Virus record (IMG/VR): IMGVR_UViG_3300032053_000198
Span: 1-39,264 of that record
Source of the DNA: a virus
Strand: one strand, 5' to 3'
DNA: 39,264 bases
Shown here: piece after piece, positions 1-39,264 of the stretch
Numbering within the stretch: the stretch's first letter is position 1
Layout of the letters: each line of letters begins with the position of its first letter
Notes under the pieces: generated by a model
Database searches by the model: none
What the model saw: only the letters and a program-made list of their open reading frames with translations
What the model was told of the DNA's origin: nothing
Translations under genes and position numbers: made by a program

Positions 1-2
1 CA

Positions 3-893
3 AATCTATGTGATAGAACTGAGTTTAGCTGGGCATCAAACCACTGCCGCAACGAAGGTGACGCTCTCGCAGTAGCAGATGGATTGATTTCTAAATTAGG
101 ATATGCAATGCCATTCTCAGGAAATGTTATTGGATTTTCTTACAGTGCAAATAAATTGCCTTGCTGCACCATGGGTGAAAGACTAGTTCTTCAAATTAAT
201 GGTCAAGATGTAAGTGGATTTGATATTGAAATTACTTGCGATTCTGACTATACTGGATGCTTTACTCACCTTAAGATTCCTTTCTGTCATTGTGATTCTA
301 TCAACATAGTTAGTAGAAAAATAATCAACAGCGCTGGTCAAGAACTTGAATATGATTCTGCTTGTGGAATTTTAGTAACCGCTATTGTAACTTACAAATG
401 TGATGTAAAACCACCAAAACCAAAACGCCCACAAACTGCTGTATTAGAGCTATATGACGTAATTGGCGACCGCCCAGTCCTATTAGTTCCAAGTACACAA
501 GCATTTGATACTGTACGCTTAGAAATTGACCCAATGAACAAAATGAGTGTTAATGGTGCAATGGACGAAGTAACTCTTCTCGATGGTGTTTATGCGATTA
601 GCTATAGAAGTGGTGTTGATACTCAAACGTCTTCTAACTTATTTTATACACAATATCTTGAAGTTGACACTGGCTCCGGATTCGCTCCATATCCAGGAAG
701 CACAAATATCACGCATGACCTTTCTGCTGCTGGTGGTAACGCTTCTTTAACAGGACGCGTGTTAATTAAAGTAGAGCGCGGTGATTTCGCTGTAGTTCGT
801 ATTGCTCACTTCCATAATCTTGATAGTTTCACTATTGATACTACGCCAAATGCTGCAAACATAGTATTTGAGCGCTTGGATTTCCGAGTTTAA
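3..893 (+). CDS. Virion or adhesin-like protein, 5' end cut off by the window
   Basis: The reading frame is open from the first bases of the window, so the true start lies upstream; the TTG at 84 is internal. The visible part (about 296 residues) is rich in beta-strand patterns. The first half has several Cys residues (PCC, CFTH, CHCD) and phrases such as SGNVIGFSYSANKLP that resemble repeated beta domains of phage tail-fibre or adhesin proteins. The last 150 residues alternate hydrophobic and polar residues with the phrase LLDGVYAISYRSGV, which suggests a C1q/TNF-like jelly roll. A strong terminator follows the stop. Its coding G+C looks higher than that of neighbours, common for structural genes. 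I do not recognise a specific family; a virion surface or receptor-binding role is inference. Confidence 0.6.
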   Translation, partial: NLCDRTEFSWASNHCRNEGDALAVADGLISKLGYAMPFSGNVIGFSYSANKLPCCTMGERLVLQINGQDVSGFDIEITCDSDYTGCFTHLKIPFCHCDSINIVSRKIINSAGQELEYDSACGILVTAIVTYKCDVKPPKPKRPQTAVLELYDVIGDRPVLLVPSTQAFDTVRLEIDPMNKMSVNGAMDEVTLLDGVYAISYRSGVDTQTSSNLFYTQYLEVDTGSGFAPYPGSTNITHDLSAAGGNASLTGRVLIKVERGDFAVVRIAHFHNLDSFTIDTTPNAANIVFERLDFRV

Positions 894-912
894 TATCTAT
901 AATTCAAAACAT

Positions 913-943
913 AAAAAACTCCAATTTCGATTGGAGTTTTTTT
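913..943 (+). terminator. Rho-independent terminator after the virion-like gene
   Basis: The arms AAAACTCCAA and TTGGAGTTTT flank a short loop and are followed by a T run. It ends the transcript of the preceding plus-strand gene. Confidence 0.85.
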
Positions 944-948
944 ATTTT

Positions 949-955
949 TATAAAC
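949..955 (+). promoter_or_regulatory. Candidate late promoter box TATAAAC
   Basis: TATAAAC sits directly after a terminator and 29 bases before the ATG at 978, with AGGAGA as ribosome binding site in between. It is one of a recurring set of such boxes placed before virion-like genes in this window and differs by one base from the T4 late core TATAAAT. Confidence 0.55.
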
Positions 956-977
956 ATTAAGTATAGGAGATATTATT

Positions 978-1112
978 ATGATTATCACAACACCACAAGC
1001 TCAAGATTTTTTAAATCCATTAGACCCAAGAAAACCTGTATTAAAAGAAGGTGAAAAAATTATCACTGAAGAAGTCAAGAAAAATGAAACTCAAAAAAGC
1101 ATTCTAGGTTAA
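978..1112 (+). CDS. Small hypothetical late protein (44 residues)
   Basis: A 44-codon frame starts at ATG 978 behind AGGAGA (7-8 base spacing) and a TATAAAC box. The product starts MIITTPQAQDFLNPLDPRKP and has a charged Lys/Glu-rich second half. No domain or membrane segment is visible. Its stop overlaps the 3' end of the convergent helicase gene by 9 bases. The isolated position between a terminator and its own promoter-like box plus a good ribosome binding site supports a real gene. The function is unknown; a minor virion protein is possible because of the late-type box. Confidence 0.6.
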   Translation: MIITTPQAQDFLNPLDPRKPVLKEGEKIITEEVKKNETQKSILG

Positions 1113-3011
1113 AAATTTAGATTCACTTCCCTTTCCCTTAACAGCAACTTTTTTAACAGATGCTGTTTTTTTATTAGCCTTTTCTTTTTTATCAGCAGCT
1201 CTCTCATCAGCAGCTTTCTTAACAGCAGCCTTTCTTGCTTTCACTGCATCAAAATCAATATTACCCTCATATATTCCTGTAAAATCAAATTCAGTAACAG
1301 GAATTTCATCTTTAACATAATAACTCAATCGTGTGCGATAATGCTTTACTGAATAATTTTCAATTAATTTAGAATACGCACTAGCACTTCTTGGCTTCGT
1401 CATATAAGAGCAATCATCAAATATATCATAAACAGTTGCTAAATTCTTTTCTGGATGCTTCCTAACGATACGACCTATACTTTGCATCACCTCATACATC
1501 GATTTAGAAAATTCAGCAAATACCAAATTGTGTAATAATTTAATATTCACCCCTTGCTTCATTGTTCCATATGTAGCAATGATAATATTGCCTGTACTTT
1601 TTTCCATCAACTTGCGAATATCATCGCGCTCAATCGCAAGAACATCTCCAATTATAATATGATATTTAAACTCAGGGTATTTCTCTTTTAGAAATTCATG
1701 CATTTCATGAAGTGTTGACTTATTCTTAAATAAAATAACCGTATTTTGCTCCATATTTATTCTACCAGCATCTATCAACAACTCCATCACAGCTTGGCGA
1801 CTAGAATTATTTGTCAGTAATGAGTATTCAGCTTGATAATTCTCCCTACAAATAGCAGCGCGAATTTCTTTGCGATATGGAATTCGAATAGCACATACTT
1901 CCACTGGAGTCAAAATACCTAATCTAACCAAATCTTTTAATCTAACAATTTCCTCTTTACGACCCAATGCCCCCTCAATCCATGCAGCGTCAAGACCATC
2001 ATCTGGCAAAGTTCCTGACAAACCAATTTTAAAATCAATTGCATTTGTACACTTGTCCAATATCTGTCTTAATATAGGTCCACGAGTTCCATGCGCCTCA
2101 TCAACAATAACAGCTGTAAATGATTTAAAAAATTGCTCGCCTTTTCGCACAAGCTCTGCACAATCCGGACAATTAAAAACTGGCTTCCTTTTATTTTTGA
2201 TTAATAACTTACATGAGGGGCATACTGGACTTAATTTACCTTGAAGACTTTGCCATGTTGAAATTGCAATAGGCTTCAACATACTTTCTTCGCCCAAATT
2301 TAACTCATCTAAATAACGCTTTTGCTTTGCTGTCAATTTATCTTCAGATTCACCATAAATTAAAGTGCAACTTTTAGCGGCATCTTCCCAGCCATAATCT
2401 TCGTAGAAATCTGAAAATAACTGTATTACCAATGCCGATGAAGGGGTAACTATTAAAATTCTTTTCTTTTCAACATTCATTAAGTAACGCGCAAGAATAC
2501 ACATTGACAAAGATTTTCCAGCTGATGTACATGCCATCAACGAAATTCTTCTACCATTAAGCGCTCGTTCAACAAGTTTTATTTGATGGTCATATGGAGT
2601 GATATTAAAATTATCTCTAGCATTATATAAATTCAAAGTATCTGCATATGCTTTAATAGCATTAGCATTCATAACTCCATTAGGATTTTTGTAAATTTTA
2701 TTAATCGAGTCGCTGACTTTTATTTTAAGATTTGGATTTCGTTCTTTCAAATATGAAGTAGCTCTCGGAATTAATCCAATTGGCATCGTCTGTGACACTT
2801 TATTAAATACATATTCAACTGGGTCAACAAACCCTTCTTCACATTCCCAGCTATAAGCTAATTTGCTATTATAATAAGAAAGCCCTACATACAACAAACT
2901 TCTAATGCTAATGATATCTTGTTTGGTAGGGGCATGAATTTCAACTATAGCATCTGTATCGCTATGTTGATTAAAAATAACTTTATAATCTTCTGATAAA
3001 TAATTTTTCAT
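1104..3011 (-). CDS. uvsW: UvsW-like SF2 DNA/RNA helicase with a Cys4 insertion
   Basis: Superfamily 2 helicase of the T4 UvsW type, which in T4 unwinds branched DNA and R-loops and moves the phage from origin- to recombination-driven replication. Numbering from the upstream TTG at 3056: Walker A CTSAGKS at 176-182, DEAH at 319-322, motif III SGT at 347-349, motif VI QSIGRIVRK at 525-533. A CPSC...CPDC pair at 279-282 and 296-299, between motifs Ib and II, looks like a zinc knuckle; I do not recall it in T4 UvsW. The tail is rich in Lys and Ala. The start is uncertain: ATG at 3011 fits the T4 N-terminus better, while TTG 3056 would sit 7 bases from the previous stop; neither has a clear ribosome binding site. 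It is the last gene of a minus-strand unit behind a late-type box, in keeping with late expression of T4 uvsW. Confidence 0.9.
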   Translation of the reverse strand: MKNYLSEDYKVIFNQHSDTDAIVEIHAPTKQDIISIRSLLYVGLSYYNSKLAYSWECEEGFVDPVEYVFNKVSQTMPIGLIPRATSYLKERNPNLKIKVSDSINKIYKNPNGVMNANAIKAYADTLNLYNARDNFNITPYDHQIKLVERALNGRRISLMACTSAGKSLSMCILARYLMNVEKKRILIVTPSSALVIQLFSDFYEDYGWEDAAKSCTLIYGESEDKLTAKQKRYLDELNLGEESMLKPIAISTWQSLQGKLSPVCPSCKLLIKNKRKPVFNCPDCAELVRKGEQFFKSFTAVIVDEAHGTRGPILRQILDKCTNAIDFKIGLSGTLPDDGLDAAWIEGALGRKEEIVRLKDLVRLGILTPVEVCAIRIPYRKEIRAAICRENYQAEYSLLTNNSSRQAVMELLIDAGRINMEQNTVILFKNKSTLHEMHEFLKEKYPEFKYHIIIGDVLAIERDDIRKLMEKSTGNIIIATYGTMKQGVNIKLLHNLVFAEFSKSMYEVMQSIGRIVRKHPEKNLATVYDIFDDCSYMTKPRSASAYSKLIENYSVKHYRTRLSYYVKDEIPVTEFDFTGIYEGNIDFDAVKARKAAVKKAADERAADKKEKANKKTASVKKVAVKGKGSESKFLT

Positions 3012-3063
3012 AATTGTAGGACACAAGGTTTGCTTATATCCTATAATATACACCAAATTTTAA

Positions 3064-4113: not shown

Positions 4114-4114
4114 T

Positions 4115-4972: not shown

Positions 4973-4998
4973 CTTTGTCTCTTAGTAGATATTAAACA

Positions 4999-5005: not shown

Positions 5006-5008
5006 TCC

Positions 5009-9482: not shown

Positions 9483-9500
9483 AAATTTATATTATTGTTT

Positions 9501-10520
9501 ATGCAAGACTATTATAAAATCCTAGGCGTTTCACGCACATCAACACAAGATGAAATTAAAAAAGCTTATAAAAAATTAGCATTTCAATTCCATCCTGATA
9601 AAAATCAAGATAATGCAGAAGCTGAAGAAAAATTTAAAGAGATTTCTGAAGCATATGAAAATGTGGGTGATTCTGGTAAGCGAAGCGCTTATGATTCTAA
9701 AATGGCGTGGGGTATGGATTTTAATAGATGGGGACATGCGTTTGGAACATCCGAAGCTGCCTCTGGATTTTCTAAAGCTGCTCGTCCGGAGCCACCAAAG
9801 GGAAGTGATATTATTGAAGAAATTAATGTGACTCTAGAAGAAATAGCGATTGGCTCTGAAAAGGTTGTTAAAATTTCTAGAATGGGTGGTTGTTCTGTAT
9901 GTGATGGTGTTGGAGCTAAAACCACTAAAACATGTTCTTTGTGTAATGGTCATGGTGTTGTTAGGAAAGTTCAAAAAGTATCTATGTTTGCCAATGCAAT
10001 AACCACTGAATCATGTCCAAATTGTTGGGGTTCTGGTGTTGAGGTTGATTCGCCATGTATGTCTTGCAATTCAACAGGTTTGATTAAAGAAGAAAAAAAT
10101 ATTAAAATAGCAGTTCCTATTGGATTTCATGATGGAGAATCATTACGAGTGTCTGGTATGGGGAATTGTGGCCCAAAAGGCGGTCGTTCTGGTGATTTGT
10201 ATATAAAAATTCGACAGATTCCTCATAAGATTTTTAAACGAGATGGTAAGAATCTTTTTTGCTCTACCGCGTTATCCTCTATTGATTTGATATTGGGTGT
10301 CAATAAAAAAATTAACACACTATTTGATACGGTAGAATTTAAAGTACCTGAAGGCACTCAGCCTAATAGTAAGTTTAAAATAAAAGATAAAGGTATCAAT
10401 GGTGGCGCTTTATTTGTTGAAATTCAGTGTCAGATACCTACTGGATTGACTTATGAACAAAAAAAACATTATGAAGAGTTGAAAATTTTAGAGAAAGAAT
10501 TTGAATTTGATATTGAATAA
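9501..10520 (+). CDS. dnaJ: DnaJ-type co-chaperone (type I, zinc-binding)
   Basis: A 339-residue Hsp40. J domain at residues 1-63 with HPD at 31-33, needed to stimulate DnaK ATPase; a short linker with few glycines in place of the usual long G/F region; four zinc-binding repeats CSVCDGVG, CSLCNGHG, CPNCWGSG and CMSCNSTG, the last deviating from CxxCxGxG; then the two beta-barrel substrate domains. No DnaK or GrpE is seen nearby, so it presumably recruits the host DnaK, perhaps to aid replication complexes or virion folding. ATG 9501 is chosen over TTG 9495 because the J domain starts directly there; TATATT at 9488-9493 lies 7 bases before it and no ribosome binding site is visible. Confidence 0.92.
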   Translation: MQDYYKILGVSRTSTQDEIKKAYKKLAFQFHPDKNQDNAEAEEKFKEISEAYENVGDSGKRSAYDSKMAWGMDFNRWGHAFGTSEAASGFSKAARPEPPKGSDIIEEINVTLEEIAIGSEKVVKISRMGGCSVCDGVGAKTTKTCSLCNGHGVVRKVQKVSMFANAITTESCPNCWGSGVEVDSPCMSCNSTGLIKEEKNIKIAVPIGFHDGESLRVSGMGNCGPKGGRSGDLYIKIRQIPHKIFKRDGKNLFCSTALSSIDLILGVNKKINTLFDTVEFKVPEGTQPNSKFKIKDKGINGGALFVEIQCQIPTGLTYEQKKHYEELKILEKEFEFDIE

Positions 10521-12294: not shown

Positions 12295-13125
12295 ATGGAT
12301 GTAGTTAAAGTTAATGATGTTTTTAGTCATGTTGAGTCTATGTTGTATGAGTTGTATAAAGATGACCCAAATCATGAAAATACTGTTTTTGTATTAGGGT
12401 ATCATTTATTGAAAACATTTAAATCAATTAGGGATGCAAAGCCTAATTGTAAAATAATCATATTTCAACTTGAACAATTCTATAATGGAACCCCATGGGC
12501 TCAAAGTAAAATTAGTAATCTCTTAAGAGAAGCTGATGAGATATGGGATTATGATGAGGATAATGTTAATTGGTTAAGGGGTAATTTTGGTGTATCCGTT
12601 AAATTACACCCAATTATTTTTACTAATTCTTTGAAGAAAATGCCTACGGTAAATGAAATGTCTAATGATGATTTAGATATAGATTTACTTTTTTATGGAA
12701 TGCTTCATGAAAAGCGCGCTAGACTTCTTTCGGCAGTTCAAAGTGCAATGAGAGGTCATGGCAAAGTAATTGACCTTTGTGGCGTATTTGGTGATGAATT
12801 GGATGGTTATATCAAAAGAGCTAAGATAATTTGTAATGTTCATTTTGCTAATCATCATAGACAAGAGCAAGTAAGAATGTTTTACCCAGTAATAAATGGT
12901 CGATGTGTTGTTAGTGAGGTGAGTCCAAAAAGTTATATGGAAAAATCTATAATAGAAGTTCCATATGAAGATATGGCTGGTGCTATTGTAACATTAATAA
13001 ATAATGGAAAATGGAGAGACCAGGCTTCGCATTGTTCAGAAACATTTAGAAATATCACATCTAAATACACACAACTACCTTTAGATGTAAAACGCGCTGT
13101 ATCACAACCTTTGTTTCCTTGGTAA
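12295..13125 (+). CDS. GT-B fold glycosyltransferase-like protein
   Basis: A 276-residue protein resembling a compact GT-B (CgeB/family 1-like) glycosyltransferase: an N-terminal Rossmann-like part (TVFVLGYHLLKTFKSIRD, CKIIIFQLEQF), the phrase EADEIWDYDEDNVNWLR near 79-95 typical of the inter-domain region, then DIDLLFYGMLHEKRARLL near 128-145 and a C-terminal half with NVHFANHHRQEQVRMFYPVI near 180-200, where the nucleotide-sugar-binding Glu/Arg of such enzymes are expected. It is shorter than typical GT-B enzymes. It follows the family 2-like gene directly and ends its unit before the late box at 13129. Confidence 0.65.
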   Translation: MDVVKVNDVFSHVESMLYELYKDDPNHENTVFVLGYHLLKTFKSIRDAKPNCKIIIFQLEQFYNGTPWAQSKISNLLREADEIWDYDEDNVNWLRGNFGVSVKLHPIIFTNSLKKMPTVNEMSNDDLDIDLLFYGMLHEKRARLLSAVQSAMRGHGKVIDLCGVFGDELDGYIKRAKIICNVHFANHHRQEQVRMFYPVINGRCVVSEVSPKSYMEKSIIEVPYEDMAGAIVTLINNGKWRDQASHCSETFRNITSKYTQLPLDVKRAVSQPLFPW

Positions 13126-13159: not shown

Positions 13160-16100
13160 ATGGGACTAAAATTATTCGTTCGTCAAAATGGAGTTGACTA
13201 TAATCCATCTACACCGAGTATGCTTACTAAATATAACGGGGAATTTCGTTTCGTTTTAACTGGCATTGATTCATATCTATGGTCTGATTTAAGAGTACGT
13301 TCCTTTTGGTATCATCACTTTGCATTACCAACAGACTCTTCTGTTGGTGGATTTTTCAACACATCAATGACGACATTAAATTGGGATGGAGGCATTGTAG
13401 ATGTTACCGAATCGTATCAAAACTGGAAAAATGACATTTATCCACCTAGGGTAACTAATAATAAATTTTGTAGCGAAGTTTCATTTTATTTTAAATCAGC
13501 TAACCCAACTGATGCTATAAATCCATTACAACCTAATGCTAATGATGCATCATTTGTACTTCAAGGTGTTTATGGTGCTGATAAATATAATAACTATTAT
13601 GATACTGAAAATAGCTACTCATACATTTCATCACCTACATTCATACAAAGCCCACTAAACTATTTATTGGAACATAAAATCTGGACTAAGGGTGTATCTA
13701 ATTTATCATTAATTGGCAATACACTTACGATACAAACAAGCACTCCTCATGGATTAAATTTAGGAGACGCTGTTAATTTAAAGGTATCGTTTATAGCTCA
13801 AGATTATAATAGCAATTTTAGAACAACTGCAATTATTAATGCTAATACATTTACCGTTAGTATAAAAGCATACACTCCTATACCAAATAATTTTTCAGCA
13901 GTGATTGAATATTGGGTTGTACTTAACGGACAAGCTCCTAGCTCAGCAATTGCTTATAATTATAATAATTCTGTGTATGTCAATCCTAATCCAAATCTAG
14001 ATAATCACATTGATTATACCTGGTTAGTTTATGCGAATAAAGATACTGCAATTACAGCTACTAATGGCGTTCCAGATGTTATCAATTACGCAACCTCATC
14101 AGTTATACCCATACAAAATTATACACTAGGAGCCACCTATGTGAAAAAAGGTGTATTTAGATTTCCTGTAAATGCAATAGGAATACCTACGGCATCAGCT
14201 CCATTTTATGCTGAAATGAATATTCAGAATTGGAGCATGTATAGTGGTAATTCAATATTTAAACTATATCAAATGAGTAGTGATTTATGGAATGTTAATG
14301 ATACTTGGAATTCAATTAATCCATACATAACATCAAATTCAATATCTTCACAAACAACAAATTCAAGTTTTAGCAATCAATCGCTTAACACATATATGAA
14401 ATTTGATGTAAGTAATAGTATTGGGTCTTGGTTAAATGATTTAATGGTTCCTGATGTTGCTATGGTTAAAAATTCCGATACTGATTTTGCAGATACATAT
14501 TGGGTTACATCGAGTGCAAATACTAGTCCATCAGTTGAAGAATGGCCTTTTGTTGTGGTAGTTGGTAGTTCTGCGCCTCCTGATGTTACACCTCCAATCG
14601 TTACTCTAATTAATGCTTCGAATTCTGTAGATGTGTTTAATATTATTGGTAATGGTTCTGGGCTCATAACTGTACAAACTGCTTCAGCGCATCATTTGAG
14701 TAATTCGGAAATTATTCAGATAACTGGAACAATAAATTATAATGACTTTTCAACTGCCGTTACTGTAATTAACCCTACAACCTTTTCATATAATCAATTA
14801 GGGAATATCGCAGTCTTAGTAGAGACTACCGGGGTGATTATTAGAAGTGAAACTGTATCATGTCAAGCCAGAGCTGCTGATAATGTTTCTATGTCTACCA
14901 ATCCATCTAATTTTATGGTTAAAAAAAGTAATTCGTTAATCACAGTTCCTGTGAGTAATATCACTCCAATTGCTATTACAACGATTGATTTTGATTTCGC
15001 ATTATCAGGCATTGGTGATGGATATTATCAAATACAAGTAAAAGACGCGGCTGGAAATTCTAGCGCGGTAATTACACCCCCTATCATCACTCAATATTTA
15101 AAATTAACACCTTCATTAAATTATGAAATATTCCCAGCTATTTTTCGCCAAGGAGATGTTTTATTTAATCGCGGATTCAATGTAGAATCATTTGCATCTA
15201 GCTTTCGATTGATAATGGGAGATGCGAATGATGGTGGGTTGATTTACGGAGGGATTAATAACTCAATTAACGATATTGATACTAACTTAAATCAGTTTGG
15301 AATTGCGATTCCATCAGCATTAAGTAATGAATGGATTTTAGGTGATGTTGATTATACTTTAAATACAATTGAATTATTGAATTCAATTAACATCCAGGTT
15401 GGATTGGCTATTGTCTTTAATATTAATGGCAATGGAATTCAGCCATTAGAAGTGGGTAGAATTTATTATGTGAAAACCGTTTCTTATAGTGGAGCATCAA
15501 CTATAGTTACATTATCAGAAACGATTAATGGAGCTACAGTTGACCTAACTCCTCCAGTTGGAACTCCTGGAATTATTAAAGCATATAATAAGTATTTCAC
15601 CACTCATGTTGAGAAAGATGGTATTTCGTCAGCATCTTATTCTAATATACTATTAATTCCAATAGATGATTTCGCTCCTTTCATTAATTTGCCATTCGTA
15701 TCATCTCCTGGTGATACCGTAAATGTTACCATATCTGACCCATCCGGAGTTGATTTAAGTCGATTAACAGTCACTAATGCTATTATAAATGGAGCTCCTA
15801 TTGATGTGTATGGTGATGGTACTGTCATAGAAATTAATATAACATCAACATCAGCAGGTAATTTAATTGTTGCATGCGCTGATATGGCTGGTAATTTAGG
15901 CTTTGTCGTGCAACTTGTTGTATCATCAATTATACCAACTATATCTATAATTAATTATCAAATATTATCACCAACTAAATTTATTTTAACCGTTAAAGTG
16001 TTTGATAATAATGTGCCGGCAATTGTGGCTTCTAGTAATTCTGGATTTGGTATATATGTTGAAAGCGTTATTCCTAATATTCCTTATGGTACTATAACAT

Positions 16101-18399: not shown

Positions 18400-18441
18400 C
18401 ATGACGTACATTTTATAATGTAAACAGAGGTATACGTCATG
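18400..18441 (+). promoter_or_regulatory. Inverted repeat enclosing the uvsX ribosome binding site and start
   Basis: A perfect 9-base inverted repeat, CATGACGTA at 18400-18408 and TACGTCATG at 18433-18441, encloses a TATAAT box (18414-18419) and the AGAGG ribosome binding site. The right arm includes the uvsX ATG. If transcription starts upstream of the left arm, the RNA hairpin would hide the start codon; if it starts at the TATAAT box, the arms can act only as a DNA operator. Confidence 0.5.
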
Positions 18442-19748: not shown

Positions 19749-19776
19749 AAGAGTAGCATTATTGCTACTCTTTTTT
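19749..19776 (+). terminator. Terminator after uvsX
   Basis: A perfect 10-base stem AAGAGTAGCA/TGCTACTCTT with a TTAT loop and a T run. It separates uvsX from the gp41-like helicase gene. Confidence 0.9.
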
Positions 19777-19809
19777 GGTTGTTGTTATATTAAGTTTAGG
19801 AGAAAATCC

Positions 19810-23576: not shown

Positions 23577-23873
23577 ATGGAATATATTGATGTGTTGAAA
23601 TTAGAGTTAAATGTATCAACTAAAGAATCTGAATTTTACAGAAAACTAAATTCTACTATGCTGTTAACTGAATCTATCACTAAATCTCGTAGGTATGGCA
23701 GAGATTTTTATATTAAAAATTATTTAAAAAATAGTGACTCAAATATAACCTCATACATGAATACCTTCGTATATTTAAGAGATGCTGAATTATCAGCAAA
23801 TCAAATTAAAAATGATGCTATAAAAGAATTGAATAAATATAAGAAAATGAAAGAAACTATAAATGTCAAATAA
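23577..23873 (+). CDS. Hypothetical helical protein upstream of the primase
   Basis: A 98-residue Lys/Asn-rich, mostly helical protein (MEYIDVLKLELNVSTKESEF). The start lies 8 bases after TTAGAGG. Its 3' end overlaps the primase gene by 11 bases, so both are probably translated together. No motif recognised; a small partner of the primase or helicase is possible from position alone. Confidence 0.6.
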   Translation: MEYIDVLKLELNVSTKESEFYRKLNSTMLLTESITKSRRYGRDFYIKNYLKNSDSNITSYMNTFVYLRDAELSANQIKNDAIKELNKYKKMKETINVK

Positions 23874-25718: not shown

Positions 25719-26693
25719 ATGAATTTATTTGCAAATAAAAAAGAAATTATTGAAGATGATTTTTTTGAAGGCGATGGTGTTATTGGAGATGCATTAGATG
25801 AAATAATTAATCATACTAATGATGTGAAAAATGCCAAGCAAAGTGATTTAATGGAAAGAGCTTCTAAAAATAGAAAAGAACTTAATGAATCTAAAAAAGA
25901 ACTGGGTATTAGGCGTGGGAAGCAAAGTAAATTTCCAAATAGGTCTCATAATTTCTTAGCAGAACCATCTGCTGATAGAGCCGTGCATTTTATACTTAAT
26001 CATCACAGAAGTGAAGCTTATAAAGATGGCGCTGATTTATGTCCACGTATTCTAATGGGAATTCCGGCATACAATAAACCCAGTAAGAAAAATGCATTTG
26101 AACATTTGATTGATGTGCAGGAAAAACTTCGCGAAGGTCGTGAGGGGCTTAGTTATCCAAAATGGATTATTATAAGTAATGATACATCAATGATAACTGA
26201 CCGAAATTTAATTACAAGGCTTGAAGAATTAAAGCCAACTACTCATGCAGCTGCATCTTATGGATTTGAAAGTATTCGATTAAATGGTCGATGGTTTGAT
26301 ATTTCTGAAAAAGACCAGGTTAATCTTAGGGGTTGCTATACTCAAGGAAGTATGAATAGTACTGATTGGGATTTTATAATAGGTAGTCAATTTAAAGAAT
26401 CTCCTCGATGGAGAATACTTATTGCACATGGGCCTTTTATAGCGGTCCGTGGCGATACTTTTATGGATATTGATTTTACATATATGGCGCAACACTCTAA
26501 AAAAGGTTTTTATCATTATATGGCACATATATCGATGGAATGTATGACAAGAAAACTTATGGTAGCGCAAGTAAAAACAAATGCAATGCAATTTGATAAC
26601 ATGACCAATCATAGAGGTCAATCTGAATTTGAAAATGACCAATCCGTCTTCACTTCTAAATGGCAAGATGTATTACCAGCTTCATTTAGGTGA
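25719..26693 (+). CDS. Putative glycosyltransferase-like protein
   Basis: A 324-residue protein behind a strong AAAGGAGGG ribosome binding site. The first 95 residues are charged and helical. From RILMGIPAYNKPSKKNAFEHL near 107-127 the text reads like the first strand and helix of a GT-A enzyme, followed by PKWIIISNDTSM near 145-156 and a later HGPFIAVRGDTFMDIDF near 240-256 that would suit the acceptor-site region. No clear DxD is seen, so the assignment is weak. It follows the methyltransferase-like gene by 14 bases, and both may modify the same glycan. Confidence 0.5.
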   Translation: MNLFANKKEIIEDDFFEGDGVIGDALDEIINHTNDVKNAKQSDLMERASKNRKELNESKKELGIRRGKQSKFPNRSHNFLAEPSADRAVHFILNHHRSEAYKDGADLCPRILMGIPAYNKPSKKNAFEHLIDVQEKLREGREGLSYPKWIIISNDTSMITDRNLITRLEELKPTTHAAASYGFESIRLNGRWFDISEKDQVNLRGCYTQGSMNSTDWDFIIGSQFKESPRWRILIAHGPFIAVRGDTFMDIDFTYMAQHSKKGFYHYMAHISMECMTRKLMVAQVKTNAMQFDNMTNHRGQSEFENDQSVFTSKWQDVLPASFR

Positions 26694-26781: not shown

Positions 26782-28032
26782 ATGATAATAGGTCAAAAGA
26801 TATGTATTGCTCCTGATAAGGAGCAAATCGAGGTGTTTCGTAAGGCTTGCGGAATTGCTCGTTATACATATAATTGGGCTTTGTGTGAGTGGAAGCGTCA
26901 GAAATCACTAGGAGTGACGAAAGTCACTCGTAATGATTTAAAGAAGTTATGGAATGCAACAAAACCCGAATGGGTTTATGAAGCTCCAAAAGACGCTAAT
27001 CAACAACCATTCACGGATTTGTATAATGGATTAAATCGTTATTTTAAAAAACAATCTAAGTTCCCTAAAATGAAAAAGAAAGGGAGGTGTAAAGATTCGT
27101 TTTACATTAGCAATGACAAAGCAAGTATAGATGACTTATATATTAAGTTGCCGTTTGTCAGTAAAGTCCGTATGGATGAACGACTTAAACATAAAGTTAG
27201 AGACATTAAGATTATGTCATGCACCGTTTCGGCTCATGCTGATAAGTGGTATGTATCAGTTAATTATGAAATTGATGATTCACTAATACAAAAAGAATCA
27301 TTAATCAATATCGTTGGTATTGATGTAGGATTGAATGATTTTGCTGTGGACAGCAATGGAAATTCAACTAAATCGCCAAAACCTCTTAAAAAATATAAAG
27401 ATAAATTAGCTAAGTTACAAAGATGCTTATCTAAAAAGAAACGTGGTTCAAAGAACCGACAAAAAACCAGAAAGAAAGTTGCAAAATGTCATGCTAGGAT
27501 AGCAAATATACGCAAAGACTTTCTGCATAAATTGTCAACCGATTATGTTAAAAATAACAAATTGATTGCAATTGAAGACTTAGATGTAAAGCAGATGCTT
27601 AAAAACCACAAGTTGGCTTTACATATTGCAGATGCAAGTTGGGGTGAGTTCAAGCGTATGCTTGAATACAAATCCAAAAAATATAACAGTATTCTCATTA
27701 AAATCGACAAATATTTTGCTTCGACAAAAACTTGTTGTGAATGCGAAACAGTAAAAGACAAAATAGGCCTCGGTGACCGAGAATATATTTGTCATGTATG
27801 TGGTTCTTGTATGTCAAGAGACTATAATGCTTCCATTAATATACTTGCATATGCACTTAGAATTTTAATACCCAGAGCCTCTGGGGTTATGCCTATGGAG
27901 TTGGTGTCACTGGCGAAGCGAGCAATCGCTTCGCTAAACAACAACGATGAAGTACCCTTCGGGGATAACGATTCGTTTATCGAATCGCTAGGGAATCAAG
28001 TGTTGGTTTACGCTAACAACATGAATCGTTAA
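26782..28032 (+). CDS. tnpB: TnpB RNA-guided nuclease (IS200/IS605 OrfB)
   Basis: A 416-residue TnpB. The N-terminal helix-turn region (KACGIARYTYNWAL) is typical. The RuvC site is intact: Asp181 in IVGIDVGLNDFAVD, Glu265 in LIAIEDLDV, Asp347 in SRDYNASINI. The zinc ribbon CCEC...CHVC at 318-321 and 337-340 is complete. TnpB uses an omega RNA made from the element's 3' end to cut DNA next to a short TAM, which retains the element at its site. The last 55 codons overlap a hairpin-rich stretch likely to be that RNA. No ribosome binding site is seen before ATG 26782. There is no tnpA beside it. Confidence 0.93.
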   Translation: MIIGQKICIAPDKEQIEVFRKACGIARYTYNWALCEWKRQKSLGVTKVTRNDLKKLWNATKPEWVYEAPKDANQQPFTDLYNGLNRYFKKQSKFPKMKKKGRCKDSFYISNDKASIDDLYIKLPFVSKVRMDERLKHKVRDIKIMSCTVSAHADKWYVSVNYEIDDSLIQKESLINIVGIDVGLNDFAVDSNGNSTKSPKPLKKYKDKLAKLQRCLSKKKRGSKNRQKTRKKVAKCHARIANIRKDFLHKLSTDYVKNNKLIAIEDLDVKQMLKNHKLALHIADASWGEFKRMLEYKSKKYNSILIKIDKYFASTKTCCECETVKDKIGLGDREYICHVCGSCMSRDYNASINILAYALRILIPRASGVMPMELVSLAKRAIASLNNNDEVPFGDNDSFIESLGNQVLVYANNMNR

Positions 28033-28386: not shown

Positions 28387-29256
28387 ATGGCTTATTCAAT
28401 AATATTTTCAAAACCCTATATCGATGTTTTAAAAAAAATATCAAGAATTCTTAAAATTTGTCAGAGAAATCATATTTTACTATTTCAAGATAAGGGATTG
28501 AGTAAGATATCACTTATGGATATGAATGTAATTATTCATATAAAAGCTGATTCAACCCACGCTAACATTAATTCTGAAGAGCTTGGAATAACTAATTTGG
28601 ATGTATTTTTAAAATACCTAGACGCGGTTAATTACCCGGAGGGTAAAACATCTATTAATTGTTCTGTAGAGCGTAGTACAAAAGGTAAAGATTATGAATC
28701 GTTAGTGATAAAGGGTTTGTATGCAACTTATCGCATGGTTGTTGCTACACCAACTATATTTATCCCCAGATATGATAGGAATATTATTTCAGAACGCGGT
28801 AGTGATGTCCTTAAGTTAGTGTCTCAATTTTATCTAGATAAGGATGACGTTAATAGATTGGAAGAGGATATTAGATTAGTTGGTGGTGCCGATTTATTTA
28901 CTTTAATGGTTGACTCTGGTGAAATTCATTTATTCATGAGAGGACTTCAAAATGAGCAGGTTACTAAAAAAATTGACCCATTAAAGGTTAGAGTATTTGA
29001 TGATTATACCACTAAAGGAGTTCCAGGGGAAGACCCATTTCGAATATTTCCATCTCGTTTTTTTAAATATATGTCACAGTTTAATTGTGATTTTGATGTT
29101 GAAATTAGGGTTCTTGAAAGACTTGATGGTAATATAGTTGCAATCAAAGCATATGGTAAAATCGAAATAGTTGGACAAGCTCCAATTGATATAATGATAG
29201 GTACTCAAGAAAGTAGTGCGGCAGTTGTTATGAATAGCTTTGAAGTTATTGAATAA
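28387..29256 (+). CDS. 45: Probable sliding clamp, gp45/PCNA-like
   Basis: A 289-residue protein with the repeated pattern of a two-domain clamp subunit. Domain 1: helix KPYIDVLKKISRILK, strand HILLFQDKGLSKISLMDMNVIIHIKA, then NLDVFLKYLDAVN and the strand pair ending TYRMVVATPTIFIPR. Domain 2: DKDDVNRLEEDIRLVG, LFTLMVDSGEIHLFMRG, RIFPSRFFKYMSQF, NIVAIKAYGKIEIVGQAPIDIMIG. The order of features follows T4 gp45 (228 residues), which forms a trimeric ring around DNA and also activates late transcription. Identity is low and the call rests on fold pattern, size and company of clamp loader genes. Promoter-like ATTCTATATT lies upstream; the ribosome binding site is weak. Confidence 0.6.
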   Translation: MAYSIIFSKPYIDVLKKISRILKICQRNHILLFQDKGLSKISLMDMNVIIHIKADSTHANINSEELGITNLDVFLKYLDAVNYPEGKTSINCSVERSTKGKDYESLVIKGLYATYRMVVATPTIFIPRYDRNIISERGSDVLKLVSQFYLDKDDVNRLEEDIRLVGGADLFTLMVDSGEIHLFMRGLQNEQVTKKIDPLKVRVFDDYTTKGVPGEDPFRIFPSRFFKYMSQFNCDFDVEIRVLERLDGNIVAIKAYGKIEIVGQAPIDIMIGTQESSAAVVMNSFEVIE

Positions 29257-32617: not shown

Positions 32618-32648
32618 AAAATAGGCGATTAATCGCCTATTTTTTTTT
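32617..32648. terminator. Bidirectional terminator between convergent genes
   Basis: A 28-base perfect palindrome with arms AAAAATAGGCGATT and AATCGCCTATTTTT. It contains the last base of the plus-strand stop (32615-32617) and the whole minus-strand stop (32637-32639), so it ends both transcription units. Confidence 0.9.
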
Positions 32649-34044: not shown

Positions 34045-34057
34045 CCAAGGCAATTCC

Positions 34058-36898
34058 GTGATTGAAAATAAAGTAATGTATTCGTCTATTCATCATGACC
34101 GAAACAACGAATTGATGTTTGTTTGGTATAATGATGGCAGTCGAATGGTGTATAAGACGAAGCATAAATTTTACACTCCTAATCAGGGAGAGTATGGTGC
34201 TCGTCCATGCGGCATGAAAGATATTTATGGAAAAGACATGTTTGAGGTTATCACTGATGGCAAAAAAGAAATGGATTTGCGTGCGCGTCACAACGGCCCA
34301 AGCAACTATCTTGCCGAACTTGATATTGATTTTAGAACTCGTTGGTTGCAGCAGGATTATCAAGATGTAGATGATTTGCGATTCTCAATGAAAGATTTCA
34401 ATATATGCTTTCTTGATATTGAAGTCGCAACAAAAGGAAAATTTCCAGTTGCATCAAAAGCTGAATATCCAGTAAATTGCGTTACGGTGCATTTTAGTAA
34501 AACTAATAATTATTTTACATTTGGGTTAAATAGAGAAATATCAGAAGCGATGACTGAAAAGTTATCAAATGCCAATTGTGAATATATAAATTGTCGCACT
34601 GAATATGAATTACTTGAGCAGCTATTCACTAAAATTGGTGATAATAATGTAGATATCTTAAGTGGCTACAATAGTTCGTTTTTTGATAATCCTTATTTGA
34701 TAAATCGAGCCCAAAAATTAGGCGTAGATATTAGGCTTTTAAGTAGACTTCCTACTAAATATAAAAGCGTATATGTTAGCAAAAGAGACGACTCTCTTAA
34801 AATAGCCGGTACTGAAGTAATTGATTATCTTCAATTATATCGTAAGTTTACAACATCAGAGCGCGATAATTATAAATTAGATACTATTGGCTTTATCGAA
34901 GTGGGTGAGCGCAAAGCTCCATTGCCTGATGGGTATATGTCGTATATAAATCACTGGGATGATTATGTATGGTATAATTTTAAAGACGTTGAATTAATTA
35001 AGCAGATTGATAATAAGCGAAGAATGTTCGAGACTACCATTGGCGCTTGTGCTGAGGCTAGAGTTCCATTTGGCTCTATTTTTGAAGCCAAAAAAATGCT
35101 AGTTGGTTTTATCGTTAACATTTTGCATAAAAAGAATCTCACTATGCCACCTCTAAAAGAGGCAGAGCGCGAGTGGTTTCCTGGTGCGTATGTATATTCA
35201 ACTCCGAACTATTATGAGTGGTTAGTCTCATATGATTATCGCTCAATGTATCCATCTATTATGATGGGCGCAAATATATCACCTGAAACCAAAGTTATAT
35301 ATCCTGTCGGAGAAGTTGTCCCAGAGCATATACTAAAAAATCTCGTGAAAAGCCCTTGGACTGCAAATGGAAAACGACAGGTATTTTATCGTAAAGATAA
35401 AGTAGGCATTGTTCCAGAGGTAGTTAAAATCTTATTTGATGGTCGTACTGAGTTAAAAGAGATGATGAAAGCATCTAAAAAACTTGGAAATTATGATGAT
35501 GTTGCTTATTATAATATGAAGCAAAATGCATATAAGTTATTTGGTAACTCACTTTACGGTCTACTTGGTAATCCATATTTCCAATTATATGACATTGATA
35601 ACTCAGCCTCAGTTACAGCCCTTGGTAAAGAATTGATTCAAACTACAACTAAAGACCTAGTGAGTTATTTTGATAATGAATTGGAATTTGACCCTAGATA
35701 TAAAGCGGTTTTTGGCGAGGCCCCACGATTATCTAAAGATTTAGCTGGTACTTTTGTAAATGAAGATGGTGAGACTTGTTATAAAAGATTGTCGCATGGC
35801 GATACTGATAGTTTCTTCGTAAGATATGAAGATATTTATGACTCATGGAAAGATAAAGTTGAAAATGAAGTTGGTGTATTGATATTCAATGGTACTGAAT
35901 GCTTTGTCAATGAGAAATTTACAATTTCAAATGAAATAGATGCTAAAAAGTTATTTAACAAAGCATGTAAAAAATACATAAGTTATTGGGATTCACTTGA
36001 TGACGAGAAGAAAAAGGATGCATTTTTTGAGGGATTGGTTACTGATGGCAAGATTCGAATAATATACAATCGTTATTTATTAACTGACTATTGTCGCATA
36101 TTTGATTCCGTGTTGCTGGAAGATAAATTAGCTGAAATTATGTTAAATTTCTCCAATTGCTGGAATTTCTATGAAAATACTTTATATCTAAAGCGAGAAA
36201 AATGCATTAGACAAGCAATTGTTACGGCTAAAAAGAAATATATATGCTTTGTTGAGAGTAATGAAGAGGTTAAATATTTTGACATAAATGAATATGGTCA
36301 AAAATATGTATCTCCTAAATTTGCTGTGACCGGTCTTGAAATTGTTCGTAGTTCTACTACACCATTTGCTCGTGAACGCATTCTTACTTTGATAACCGAG
36401 TTGCTTAAAAATAAAGATAAAAAACATATACGCAAAGAGTATCTGAATTTAAAACGCGAATATTATCAATTGGTTCATAGTGGTGATTGGTATAGTATTT
36501 CAATTCCATCCGGAGTTAAAAAAACACCACCACCGTATCTTGAATATATAGAATGGCCCGAAGAACTGAGGAAAAAAGTTGATTGGCGGCTTAGAGCTGG
36601 TTCTGTTTGGAATCATTTACTTGATACTGACCCAGTACTTAAGGATATGGGTTTAGAGCCTATTTTTGAAAGCTCTAAAGTTAAATTCATTAAAGTGGCA
36701 CCCAACACCTATAATATAAGCACTATTGCGTATGTTGGTGATAACTGTCCAGAGCGCATGTGGGAAATATTCATTCCTGATTGGGATTTACAATGGGAAA
36801 AAGTTTTGAAAAAAACAATGGATAGAATGTTTAATGCTATTGGATGGGGTATGGATGTAGAGAATGATGACCGCGAATTGATGCTAGAGTTATTTTAA
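34058..36898 (+). CDS. 43: Replicative DNA polymerase, family B (gp43-like)
   Basis: A 946-residue family B polymerase with proofreading exonuclease (T4 gp43 has 898). N-terminal domain includes GMKDIYGKDMF as in T4. Exo I is CFLDIEVATKG with Asp120 and Glu122. Polymerase motif A is YDYRSMYPSI (Asp393), motif B is NAYKLFGNSLYG at 490-501, motif C is HGDTDSFF with Asp582 and Asp584. All catalytic residues are present and there is no intein or split. It copies the genome with the clamp, gp44/62-like loader, gp41-like helicase and gp32-like protein. The GTG at 34058 is preferred because AAGG lies 7 bases upstream; ATG 34076 is the alternative. Confidence 0.96.
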   Translation: MIENKVMYSSIHHDRNNELMFVWYNDGSRMVYKTKHKFYTPNQGEYGARPCGMKDIYGKDMFEVITDGKKEMDLRARHNGPSNYLAELDIDFRTRWLQQDYQDVDDLRFSMKDFNICFLDIEVATKGKFPVASKAEYPVNCVTVHFSKTNNYFTFGLNREISEAMTEKLSNANCEYINCRTEYELLEQLFTKIGDNNVDILSGYNSSFFDNPYLINRAQKLGVDIRLLSRLPTKYKSVYVSKRDDSLKIAGTEVIDYLQLYRKFTTSERDNYKLDTIGFIEVGERKAPLPDGYMSYINHWDDYVWYNFKDVELIKQIDNKRRMFETTIGACAEARVPFGSIFEAKKMLVGFIVNILHKKNLTMPPLKEAEREWFPGAYVYSTPNYYEWLVSYDYRSMYPSIMMGANISPETKVIYPVGEVVPEHILKNLVKSPWTANGKRQVFYRKDKVGIVPEVVKILFDGRTELKEMMKASKKLGNYDDVAYYNMKQNAYKLFGNSLYGLLGNPYFQLYDIDNSASVTALGKELIQTTTKDLVSYFDNELEFDPRYKAVFGEAPRLSKDLAGTFVNEDGETCYKRLSHGDTDSFFVRYEDIYDSWKDKVENEVGVLIFNGTECFVNEKFTISNEIDAKKLFNKACKKYISYWDSLDDEKKKDAFFEGLVTDGKIRIIYNRYLLTDYCRIFDSVLLEDKLAEIMLNFSNCWNFYENTLYLKREKCIRQAIVTAKKKYICFVESNEEVKYFDINEYGQKYVSPKFAVTGLEIVRSSTTPFARERILTLITELLKNKDKKHIRKEYLNLKREYYQLVHSGDWYSISIPSGVKKTPPPYLEYIEWPEELRKKVDWRLRAGSVWNHLLDTDPVLKDMGLEPIFESSKVKFIKVAPNTYNISTIAYVGDNCPERMWEIFIPDWDLQWEKVLKKTMDRMFNAIGWGMDVENDDRELMLELF

Positions 36899-37046
36899 CC
36901 TTTTTGGTCAAAATTTTGTCCAAGATTTGTTGAGCAAATAGACTCTATTTTCCTATGCGATTCATATTCATTAATTATTTTTATTTGTCGAATCATTTTT
37001 GGTTTCAAAAAATAATATAAATAAGGATTTGAGTATTGTTGTATGT

Positions 37047-37511: not shown

Positions 37512-37538
37512 GAATTAGTTTTTAATTTGTTTATTCAA

Positions 37539-37545
37539 GTTTATA
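37539..37545 (-). promoter_or_regulatory. Candidate late promoter box TATAAAC (minus strand)
   Basis: GTTTATA on the plus strand reads TATAAAC toward the minus-strand gene starting at 37511. A TATATT box for the plus-strand gp44-like gene lies beside it at 37554-37559, so this is another late/early divergent region. Confidence 0.5.
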
Positions 37546-37588
37546 TATTTCTATATATTAATACATACATAATCATCAAGAGACTTAT

Positions 37589-38620
37589 ATGAACCTTTTT
37601 TCAGACGATAGTGAAATATTGATAGCTAATGAACGGCATAATCAAGCAATAACAGAAGTTAGAAATGAGATTAATGGCGCTTGGCCTAAAAAATATGAAC
37701 CAAAATGTATTGATGATGTGATATTACCTCAACACATCAAAAATACTGTATCGTTCGCATTAGAACATAATCAATTTCAACACATGATTTTCCATAGTGG
37801 AAAACCTGGAACTGGAAAAACAACTCTCGCAAGAGTTATTCCAGAAGAATTTAAAACAGATAGTATTTTCTTGACCGTTTCTAAGCACTCAATGGATATT
37901 TTAGATGTTATTCAAAATTATTCAATGCAAAAGTTGACTGACGGAAAACCTCGATTCGTTATCATTGATGAAGCCGACAGGCCATCACCAACAATTGCCG
38001 CTAATTTTTATAATGGGCTGCAATCAATAATGGATAATGCTACGGCAACTATTCGTTTTATTTTTACATGTAATAATCTTTATAAAATACCAGAACCAAT
38101 TCGTGCATCGCGATGCGCTCCTATTTCATTTGCACATCGCGATGATGTAGAAGTTAAAAAAGCGCTTTTTAAAAGAATGATTCAAATAGCCGAGATTGAA
38201 ACTGGTAAAGTCGGTGGTACATTTGATAGAGAAACATTGAAAGAAATAGCTCGGTTTCACTATCCCGACATGAGAGCTATTATTGGCGCAATGCAATCTT
38301 CATTTTTAGAGAATCTAGGTAGTATTATTGGGGTTCCAACATTCTCTGCTAGTGATTATGTTGCTAAAATGTGGGAGTATATTGAATTATTTGATGATGA
38401 GGGTTTAAGGTTATTCACAACAGAGCATATAGTCGATTATAGCGCCGTTTACAGCCCGTTTGGTAGTTACGTAATGCAACGCATCGACAAGAAGCATAGA
38501 CTGGATTTTGCGGTATTATTGGGCTATTATCAATCACAGTCTGCAACACAAGTTGTTGACCAAGAAATTAATTTAGATGCATTTATGTGTCGCATAATAC
38601 AATTGATAAAAAGCAAATAG
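37589..38620 (+). CDS. 44: Clamp loader large subunit, gp44/RFC-like AAA+ ATPase
   Basis: A 343-residue AAA+ clamp loader subunit (T4 gp44 has 319). Walker A GKPGTGKT at 71-78, Walker B FVIIDEADR at 123-131 (T4 has a DEFDR form), sensor 1 FTCNN at 159-163, and the SRC arginine-finger motif at 174-176 in IRASRCAP. The C-terminal third is helical as in RFC collar domains. In T4, four gp44 and one gp62 open the gp45 ring and place it at primer ends. A purine-rich AAGAGA lies 8 bases before the ATG. The following gene is a likely gp62. Confidence 0.93.
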   Translation: MNLFSDDSEILIANERHNQAITEVRNEINGAWPKKYEPKCIDDVILPQHIKNTVSFALEHNQFQHMIFHSGKPGTGKTTLARVIPEEFKTDSIFLTVSKHSMDILDVIQNYSMQKLTDGKPRFVIIDEADRPSPTIAANFYNGLQSIMDNATATIRFIFTCNNLYKIPEPIRASRCAPISFAHRDDVEVKKALFKRMIQIAEIETGKVGGTFDRETLKEIARFHYPDMRAIIGAMQSSFLENLGSIIGVPTFSASDYVAKMWEYIELFDDEGLRLFTTEHIVDYSAVYSPFGSYVMQRIDKKHRLDFAVLLGYYQSQSATQVVDQEINLDAFMCRIIQLIKSK

Positions 38621-38627
38621 GTAAAAA

Positions 38628-39050
38628 ATGGCTAGATTCGACTCATTTGAATTTCTTAAAGAACGCGCCTTAAGTATAGAGCCAACTGAAAGTCAATTAG
38701 ATTCATTTGACATCTTTATGACTCAAATGGCCCTATCTATGGTTCATAATCAAAAACACTTATGCGAAAAAATTAATTCACATGATTTTTTTGCACTACC
38801 AAAACCAATTCAATGCATGGCATTAACTTCATTGGATGGAAAAAATTTATATGTTAAGTGGAATAAGTCAAAAAAAACAGCATCCCAAGAGCGAGAAGAT
38901 ACCATTGAGAAGGTTATGAAAGTGTATGATTGTTCACGAAATGAATCTCAAAGCTTTCTCGCAAATGGCATTATAAATCTAGAAAAACTAGAAGACCTTT
39001 ATGCGAGAATTTATGCGCCAAATGATATCAAGTTTAGGGTTAAAAAATGA
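38628..39050 (+). CDS. 62: Probable clamp loader small subunit, gp62-like
   Basis: A 140-residue helical protein directly after the gp44-like gene (7-base gap, AGG in the ribosome binding site). It is shorter than T4 gp62 (187), but the second half, with YVKWNKSKKTASQEREDTIE, KVMKVYDCSRNESQSFLANG and NLEKLEDLY, parallels the T4 segment holding KW, a helix ending in a Tyr, and a following KSILTKNGK...L helix. The resemblance is partial and the call leans on synteny. Its end overlaps the next gene by 4 bases. Confidence 0.55.
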   Translation: MARFDSFEFLKERALSIEPTESQLDSFDIFMTQMALSMVHNQKHLCEKINSHDFFALPKPIQCMALTSLDGKNLYVKWNKSKKTASQEREDTIEKVMKVYDCSRNESQSFLANGIINLEKLEDLYARIYAPNDIKFRVKK

Positions 39051-39238
39051 ATAATATTGAATATATAATGGATTTATTTGTGGTGAGTAAAGAGAAAGCC
39101 GAAGAGCTAATTGCCTCCGGCTTAAATGTTGACGCTATGCGACAGGGTTGGTCTAAAGAGCTTAATGCTGAATTAACTGAAATTGATGTTAAATTAAAGA
39201 CGGTCGTTGAAACCTTCTTCTCTGAGGAGTCCTCTTAA
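39047..39238 (+). CDS. Small protein sharing a helical module with the gp62-like protein
   Basis: A 63-residue helical protein whose ATG overlaps the preceding stop (ATGA). The first 26 residues, with IMDLFVVSKEKAEELIASGL, follow the same pattern as VMKVYDCSRNESQSFLANGI in the preceding protein (pattern M..(Y/F)..S(K/R)...A.G(I/L)) and look like a UBA-like three-helix fold. T4 has regA next to gp62, but this is far too short for RegA. Function unknown. Confidence 0.6.
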   Translation: MNNIEYIMDLFVVSKEKAEELIASGLNVDAMRQGWSKELNAELTEIDVKLKTVVETFFSEESS

Positions 39239-39264
39239 GGCATCCCCATCATCATCGTCAATCG
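39194..39264 (-). CDS. Possible 3' end of a minus-strand gene leaving the window
   Basis: On the minus strand a frame enters from the right edge and ends at a TAA (39194-39196), reading IDDDDGDALRGLLREEGFND before the last two residues. The acidic lead and charged helix resemble ends of the virion-like proteins in this window, and minus-strand late genes recur between replication genes here. It would overlap the plus-strand gene by 45 bases. Evidence is short, so this is tentative. Confidence 0.3.
   Translation of the reverse strand, partial: IDDDDGDALRGLLREEGFNDRL

Follow-up and report, generated by a model that had tools for sequence, protein, structure and literature searches.

Complete absence of GATC from a 39-kb fragment of an uncultured T4-type phage, probably purged under host Type II restriction

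The stretch of DNA analyzed here (the window) comprises 39,264 nucleotides, i.e. the complete virus record IMGVR_UViG_3300032053_000198, and is totally devoid of the tetranucleotide GATC. The most probable explanation, to which we give a probability of about 0.82, is that GATC has been purged from a lytic T4-type lineage under host Type II restriction of the MboI/DpnII/Sau3AI specificity. This reading draws on the specificity of the loss, on the synonymous codon choices by which it was reached and on the words kept or purged by related phages.

A machine count found no GATC in the 39,264 bases, as a preliminary description had stated, against expectations of 117.7 from base composition and of 134.9 (~135) from a second-order Markov model. 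The codon-shuffle null (500 shuffles of synonymous codons preserving the proteins and the codon usage) gave 81.8±6.6 GATC (range 61-104) in the 37,056 coding bases and, with the most conservative null, the Poisson probability of zero is ~3e-36. The depletion is confined to GATC, since the next lowest 4-mers by Markov observed/expected ratio, ACGT and CATG, only fall to 0.60 and 0.64 and no other 4-mer comes close. Other palindromes do occur, as already noticed (27 GGCC, 60 GTAC and 29 ACGT). AGATC, GATCA, GATCC and CGATC are each absent, showing that the loss is independent of the flanking bases. By the definition used in a survey of restriction-site avoidance (observed/expected <0.1 with expected ≥15), GATC is eliminated from the window, in which 2,074 positions are one mutation short of this word. 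GATC is a palindrome within the 4-6 bp range that is recognized by known Type II enzymes and avoided whatever its flanks; it is the specificity of Sau3A (PMC6532042).

The synonymous route of this avoidance can be read directly from codon choice. Although GAT is used for 714 of the 874 Asp codons of the window, the Asp codon preceding a C is GAC in 50 cases out of 50. Likewise, Ile following a G is never encoded by ATC (0/117), compared to 83 ATC elsewhere, and a codon of the form xGA is never followed by TC. Six places had been proposed as examples of the Asp codon choice: GACC lies at most 8 bases from all of them and, at five, it forms part of an Asp-Pro or Asp-Gln pair read in frame (Table 1), but the one near 1022 is intergenic and provides no codon example.

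Table 1. Features of the window, with their positions, strand, basis of assignment and GATC content.
Feature	Position	Strand	Basis	GATC observed; expected
Whole window, GATC-free on both strands (palindrome)	1..39264	.	window = complete virus record	
Synonymous avoidance, Asp-Pro = GAC CCA	528..531	+	sequence check	
UvsW-like DNA helicase	1104..3056	-	PHROG 16 E=2e-63; PF04851/PF00270	
DnaJ-like chaperone	9495..10520	+	PF00226/PF01556/PF00684	0; 2.3
Synonymous avoidance, Asp-Pro = GAC CCA	12364..12367	+	sequence check	
Large protein, C-terminal gp25-like baseplate wedge domain	13160..17458	+	PHROG 261 E=1e-10	0; 7.3
UvsX-type recombinase	18439..19710	+	PHROG 97 E=1e-44	0; 4.4
gp41/DnaB-type replicative helicase	19762..21345	+	PF03796; PHROG 19 E=2e-74	
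gp32-type single-strand DNA-binding protein	22457..23521	+	PHROG 224 E=3e-24	
DNA primase	23863..25086	+	PHROG 47 E=3e-35	
Synonymous avoidance, Asp-Gln = GAC CAG	26313..26316	+	sequence check	
TnpB (IS200/IS605 OrfB) gene	26782..28032	+	PF01385, PF07282, PF12323	0; 2.4
Synonymous avoidance, Asp-Pro = GAC CCA	28975..28978	+	sequence check	
gp43-type family B DNA polymerase	34058..36898	+	PHROG 262 E=3e-135; PF00136/PF03104; 60% aa to G046 and G047	0; 6.1 (codon shuffle)
gp44-type clamp loader subunit	37589..38620	+	PHROG 168 E=8e-50	
Synonymous avoidance, Asp-Gln = GAC CAA	38558..38561	+	sequence check	
gp62-type clamp loader subunit	38628..39050	+	PHROG 225 E=9e-5	

The window carries a T4-type myophage gene set (gp43, gp44, gp62, gp41, gp32, UvsX, UvsW and a gp25-type baseplate protein) and represents part of the genome of a T4-type phage from a new uncultured group. 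Its polymerase shares 48-61% identity with those of 13 distinct members of the group and ~25-30% with those of isolates. These members were recovered using the helicase, the ORF at 25719 and a three-member polymerase alignment; single-protein scans with UvsX and gp44 recovered no close relatives, and two other loci considered as relatives (L002 and L003) proved distant (27-29%). According to the relatives, the full genome probably reaches 160-260 kb, of which the window represents 39 kb. Within these 39 kb, which carry a T4-type replisome, neither an integrase gene nor a DNA methyltransferase gene was found, nor were any Rfam families or tRNAs. The name of PF04851 could suggest a restriction subunit for the UvsW-like gene on the minus strand, but the product of this gene belongs to a DNA helicase family and is no such subunit.

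The preliminary description had proposed a comparison with related phages. The three nearest relatives (G045, G046 and G047, the last two with 60% polymerase identity) retain GATC, and the gene order of the window is matched in G046. The latter has 348 GATC for 449 expected but has purged CGCG (0/34), GGCC (4/48) and CCGG (8/56); G047 has 582 GATC for 750 expected but has purged CCWGG (0/114), GGWCC (0/46), GCSGC (0/23) and CGSCG (0/20). GATC was lost independently in a separate branch of the group, where it is absent from the 260-kb contig of G058 (0 for 1,082 expected) and nearly so from the 171-kb contig of G049 (3 for 563 expected). Their G+C content is ~50-55%, compared to 33% in the window, and base composition is therefore not the cause of the loss. 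This single uncultured T4-type group, with one gene backbone, thus includes phages that purged GATC, phages that kept it and purged other Type II words, and phages that purged none. More broadly, among 159 T4-like loci, near-total 4-mer loss mainly concerns palindromes: GATC (32 loci), AGCT (26), ACGT (24), CATG (20) and CCGG (17).

Since GATC persists in the nearest relatives, which have lost other words, its loss in the window reflects neither a mutation bias nor a general property of these phages. Furthermore, the purging of different Type II-like palindromes in each lineage argues for host Type II restriction and against mutation bias or Dam/MutH alone. As for its mechanism, we infer a host Type II enzyme as the agent, cutting of the unmethylated form of the site and a lytic phage. 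The lineage would have long been exposed, in most of its hosts, to an orthodox Type II enzyme cutting unmodified GATC, so that, on entry, every GATC in unmodified phage DNA would represent one chance of being cut. For nearly every site, some mutation would remove it while leaving the protein unchanged (GAC C for GAT C, G ATT or G ATA for G ATC, a different Arg/Gly or Ser codon in xGA TCN) and selection could therefore remove every site; it would have cleared all GATC and would still clear newly arising ones. The survey reported such elimination almost exclusively at orthodox Type II sites, chiefly in non-temperate dsDNA phages; it was complete or nearly complete in about one tenth of viral genomes and, where GATC enzymes are encoded by the host, GATC was below expectation in 46 of 46 phages (PMC6286503).

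The distribution of methyltransferases in T4-like phages is suggestive of a link between Dam carriage and GATC retention. None of the 20 loci with a Dam-like gene is GATC-depleted, compared to 36 of the 145 loci without it (Fisher p = 0.008), but this correlation is not independent of phylogeny (a sign test on independent tree pairs is not significant), and some loci of the set are overlapping records of a single phage. Dam carriers that are never GATC-depleted are what would be expected if unmethylated GATC is the dangerous form. Among the relatives, no C5-methyltransferase was found in the 15 searched and no N6/N4-methyltransferase in the two searched; a D12 (Dam-like) methyltransferase is encoded by one of them, G054, that has 393 GATC for 1,104 expected.

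The preliminary description proposed evasion of either a GATC-specific restriction or a Dam/MutH-type host system. The first half is well supported by the other palindromes purged in the sister phages; the second, which we regard as unlikely, supposes a host with methyl-directed mismatch repair, in which phage DNA replicates fast, is undermethylated and is nicked by MutH at unmethylated GATC, so that this word is counter-selected without any restriction system. GATC is the exact MutH site and this mechanism is documented for enterobacterial phages: GATC is the depleted tetranucleotide in both T7 and phiX174. The 5.4 kb of phiX174 contain no GATC, and the mutation rate of this phage fell eightfold, without obvious loss of short-term growth, once 20 GATC had been restored (PMC5014478). 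However, it requires a MutH in the host, and depletion is strong yet incomplete in T7 (6/143) and incomplete in T4 (49/139 in the 40 kb checked). Furthermore, it predicts the loss of GATC only, whereas the two nearest sisters have lost CGCG and GGCC or CCWGG and GGWCC, so that at least one further agent of the same kind must act in the group. For the window phage taken alone, a long-lived selective agent other than a restriction-modification enzyme is possible.

It is very unlikely that the loss reflects systems of the DpnI type, by which some hosts methylate GATC and others cut GmATC, leaving the site-free state as the only safe one. The DpnI, DpnII and DpnIII cassettes alternate within streptococcal populations (PMC12707154) and both forms of GATC can thus face attack, but modification-dependent enzymes generally cause little avoidance (PMC6286503) and phages with a Dam-like gene retain GATC. 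Equally slender is the chance that, instead of or besides evasion, the absence of GATC is a self-mark, an unrecognized enzyme destroying the GATC-bearing DNA of the host and of competitor phages while the sisters use other words; if true, this would be a restriction system run by a phage without methylation. A slightly smaller chance still goes to a GATC-specific nuclease encoded by the phage, that would shred host DNA and spare its own site-free genome. Host DNA degradation is known from large phages, self-protection would fit zero GATC over the 260 kb of G058, and the window covers only a minor part of its genome. However, no match to the MutH/Sau3AI family (PF02976) was found in any of 65 scans of T4-like records, the GATC-free relatives included, the proteins common to G049 and G058 and absent from six phages keeping GATC amount to one family without Pfam match and one doubtful ORF, and each sister would need its own nuclease for its lost palindromes. 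Lastly, composition, codon-pair preference or mutation bias without any enzyme has a negligible probability: we found no evidence favoring it, and it is refuted by the codon shuffle (82 expected, 0 observed), by an effect limited to the exact palindrome, by equal loss at 33% and ~55% G+C and by the GATC retained in the nearest relatives of the same composition.

Restriction-site avoidance is already known and the window phage adds another case. The large lytic staphylococcal phage K (Kayvirus) likewise has no GATC (0/155 in the 50 kb checked), a loss attributed to Sau3A in its host (PMC6532042); it is an unrelated SPO1-type phage whose host and enzyme are known. The survey mentioned above (PMC6286503) also reported the elimination of Type II palindromes in dsDNA phages; here, it concerns a T4-type group that is uncultured and whose related members have each purged a set of their own. 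Among marine T4-like phages, Pelagibacter phage Mosig (GATC 8/149 and ACGT 0/63 in 50 kb) and Methylophilales phage Melnitz (GATC 23/~516 in the whole record) are also depleted, but they are distant (~27% polymerase identity for Melnitz), their loss is incomplete and several palindromes are gone together. T4 itself has replisome genes homologous to those of the window but encodes its own Dam.

The preliminary description also considered that the accessory genes have long been in this lineage. This claim is weak for each of them taken singly, as only ~1-3 GATC are expected per gene (1-2.6 for the glycosyltransferase genes; Table 1 for TnpB and DnaJ), and the lack of GATC in the TnpB gene (P0 = 0.09) is not informative alone. 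No TnpB gene lies at the syntenic place in the relative (G046/L210). Furthermore, GATC-free and GATC-bearing T4-like phages alternate in the UvsX tree at distances of ~0.1 substitutions/site, indicating that GATC loss can be fast.

The absence of GATC was also presented as a clue to the host. It is one in a generic sense, pointing to hosts among which GATC restriction is frequent, but it does not name any host. The TnpB is of no help, its best match (49% identity, in a Desulfovibrio MAG) being too distant and the element too mobile. Shine-Dalgarno-like start sites precede 35% of the ATG genes of the window, compared to 5% in the background, and the only hosts that they speak against are those making no use of such sites. 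Avoidance is usually judged phage by phage, and this group offers a clean natural experiment on one gene backbone. It opens the questions of how fast words are purged, whether the host enzymes can be predicted from the words lost and whether carrying Dam replaces purging. Overall, the purged words would constitute a fingerprint of the hosts, and GATC restriction should be widespread among the bacteria that the window phage infects.

A machine count found no GATC in the 39,264 bases of the window, compared with 118 sites expected from base composition, 135 from a second-order Markov model and 82±6.6 (minimum 61) from 500 codon shuffles that kept proteins and codon usage and concerned coding bases only. 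The complete absence claimed by the preliminary description is therefore confirmed under three nulls, with a Poisson probability of about 3e-36 on the most conservative one. Since all flanked forms are also at zero, the avoided word is plain GATC. The depletion is specific to this word: no other 4-mer is eliminated, the next lowest relative to the Markov expectation being ACGT (29/49, observed/expected, as in all following pairs) and CATG (112/174). Synonymous codons pay for this loss: Asp before C is encoded by GAC in 50/50 cases, ATC is never used for Ile after G, and no codon ending in GA is followed by TC. The examples previously located are correct apart from the one near 1022, which lies between genes. 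CGWCG (CGACG/CGTCG; 0/~10) is a possible second purged palindrome, of 5 bp; its loss is weaker than that of GATC and many words were tested.

The window is an entire virus record and, judging from its gene content, a fragment of a T4-type phage. It carries T4-type replisome genes (gp43 polymerase, gp44 and gp62 clamp loader, gp41-type helicase, gp32, primase), UvsX, an UvsW-like helicase and a gp25-type baseplate domain, besides DnaJ, a DprA-like protein, glycosyltransferase-like proteins and a TnpB gene. Searches of the window revealed neither a DNA methyltransferase nor a restriction gene. Its polymerase is only about 25-30% identical to those of isolates. IMG/VR scans revealed 15 related loci (13 once two near-duplicates were removed), with polymerases 48-61% identical to that of the window and records reaching 259,974 b. 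One purged member comes from sample 3300033463, a rumen dataset (PMC12149495). The purged relatives cluster in a single branch of the polymerase tree (six rows, support 100/99), and the window lies apart from it, with three members that keep GATC; the simplest reading of this separate position would be at least two GATC losses in the group. One of the purged relatives (G058) shows the largest complete site elimination met in this analysis (260 kb).

GATC counts (observed/expected) and located features in the window and related records
Record	Position	Feature	GATC	Remark
Window	5232-6644	470-aa protein, no Pfam or PHROG match		Matches uncultured huge phages only, weakly; homologues in six group members
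Window	13160-36898	Gene order conserved in L210 (locus of G046)		Polymerase and UvsX of G046 each 60% identical to those of the window
Window	26782-28032	TnpB
Window	32637-33170 (-)	Glu-rich, very acidic low-complexity protein, Lys run at end		Homologues in G046 and G047
G045			293/344	Kept
G046			348/449	Kept
G047 (IMGVR_UViG_3300009081_000009, 164,708 b; L247-L255)			582/750	Kept
G050			592/1,066	Partly depleted
G054			393/1,104	Partly depleted
G056			273/819	Partly depleted
G049 (L238-L246)	62134, 62299, 67590	Sole three GATC of 171 kb, spanning <5.5 kb	3/563	Purged; two sites within one ORF without Pfam match, one in a nicotinate phosphoribosyltransferase gene; may mark recent import
G058 (IMGVR_UViG_3300031993_000006, 259,974 b; L256-L268)			0/1,082	Purged; ACGT 115/628
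Pelagibacter phage HTVC008M (L164)	70000-119999			20/20 remaining GATC listed precede C (GATCC); TCGA 1/44, CGCG 0/25

Sister phages have purged other words. G046 has lost CGCG (0/34), GGCC (4/48) and CCGG (8/56), all retained by the window (35/37, 27/32 and 33/23, respectively), in which other palindromes do occur, as initially described. G047 keeps GATC while four 5-bp palindromes are totally lost: CCWGG (0/114), GGWCC (0/46), GCSGC (0/23) and CGSCG (0/20). A change of host restriction systems would be expected to leave just such a switching between Type II-like palindromes on a shared gene backbone, and this comparison would be the deciding evidence for host restriction over bias or mismatch repair. 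The GATC signal is real and very strong, and putative Type II restriction site elimination is its ordinary explanation. According to a survey, elimination of sites is nearly confined to orthodox Type II systems, chiefly in non-temperate dsDNA phages, and GATC is below expectation in 46/46 phages infecting hosts that encode GATC enzymes (PMC6286503). Phage K also has zero GATC (0/155 in the 50 kb checked), a loss that a review ascribes to Sau3A (PMC6532042). Unlike the complete loss in the window, that of T7 is strong but incomplete (6/143), and T4, which has its own Dam, retains 49/139 in the 40 kb checked.

A phage-borne nuclease, for which the genome would be site-free, was looked for and not found: MutH/Sau3AI-family matches are absent from the T4-like records searched, and the proteins that the purged G049 and G058 share, and that six GATC-keeping members lack, amount to one Pfam-less family and one doubtful ORF. 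Since most of its genome lies outside the window, such a nuclease is best called improbable. Mismatch repair, to which the GATC loss of phiX174 has been linked (PMC5014478), concerns GATC only and does not predict the loss of other palindromes by sister phages; of the two agents initially proposed, restriction and a Dam/MutH system, the switching thus favors the former. Mutation bias or codon preference does not predict this switching either. Base composition is not the cause, since GATC was purged both at 33% G+C (window) and at about 50-55% (other branch).

A wider set of 159 T4-like loci was gathered among the matches listed, mostly by polymerase and UvsX scans; many span only short stretches, and some show different parts of the same phage. 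Losses (observed/expected <0.15) mainly affect palindromes: GATC (at least 32 loci), AGCT (at least 26), ACGT (at least 24), CATG (at least 20) and CCGG (at least 17). At least 26 loci, window included, lack GATC entirely where 8 or more sites would be expected. Among the matches listed, the UvsX tree implies 14-16 changes of the GATC-purged state, and the distance between purged and unpurged loci can be as small as 0.10 substitutions per site, suggesting that purging, or regain, can be quick. Among the same matches, 0/20 loci with a Dam-like gene are purged versus 36/145 without (Fisher p=0.008), but this association is not significant on the tree; it is therefore only suggestive of unmethylated GATC as the dangerous form. 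GATC and ACGT (sometimes TCGA) are lost jointly in L094, L108, L111, L123, L136, L141, L148, L156 and L161; this joint loss is frequent in aquatic T4-like contigs, as if two pressures travelled together. In the Pelagibacter phage, avoidance looks as if it were limited to GATC without C next.

A long residence of the accessory genes had also been proposed. The absence over the whole window is overwhelming, but these genes are short, each being expected to carry only ~1-2.6 GATC (TnpB 2.4, P0=0.09; DnaJ 2.3; glycosyltransferase-like 1.0-2.6), so that no single one can be dated. They fit either purging or derivation from other GATC-poor phages. Distant TnpB homologues contain 5-10 GATC in 3/4 cases. 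The two genes flanking TnpB are only 0.8 kb apart in L210, which lacks it there, and TnpB is thus likely an insertion in the lineage of the window. Overall, the kind of explanation is already known; its novelty lies in where it occurs: an uncultured T4-type group in which different members have purged different words.
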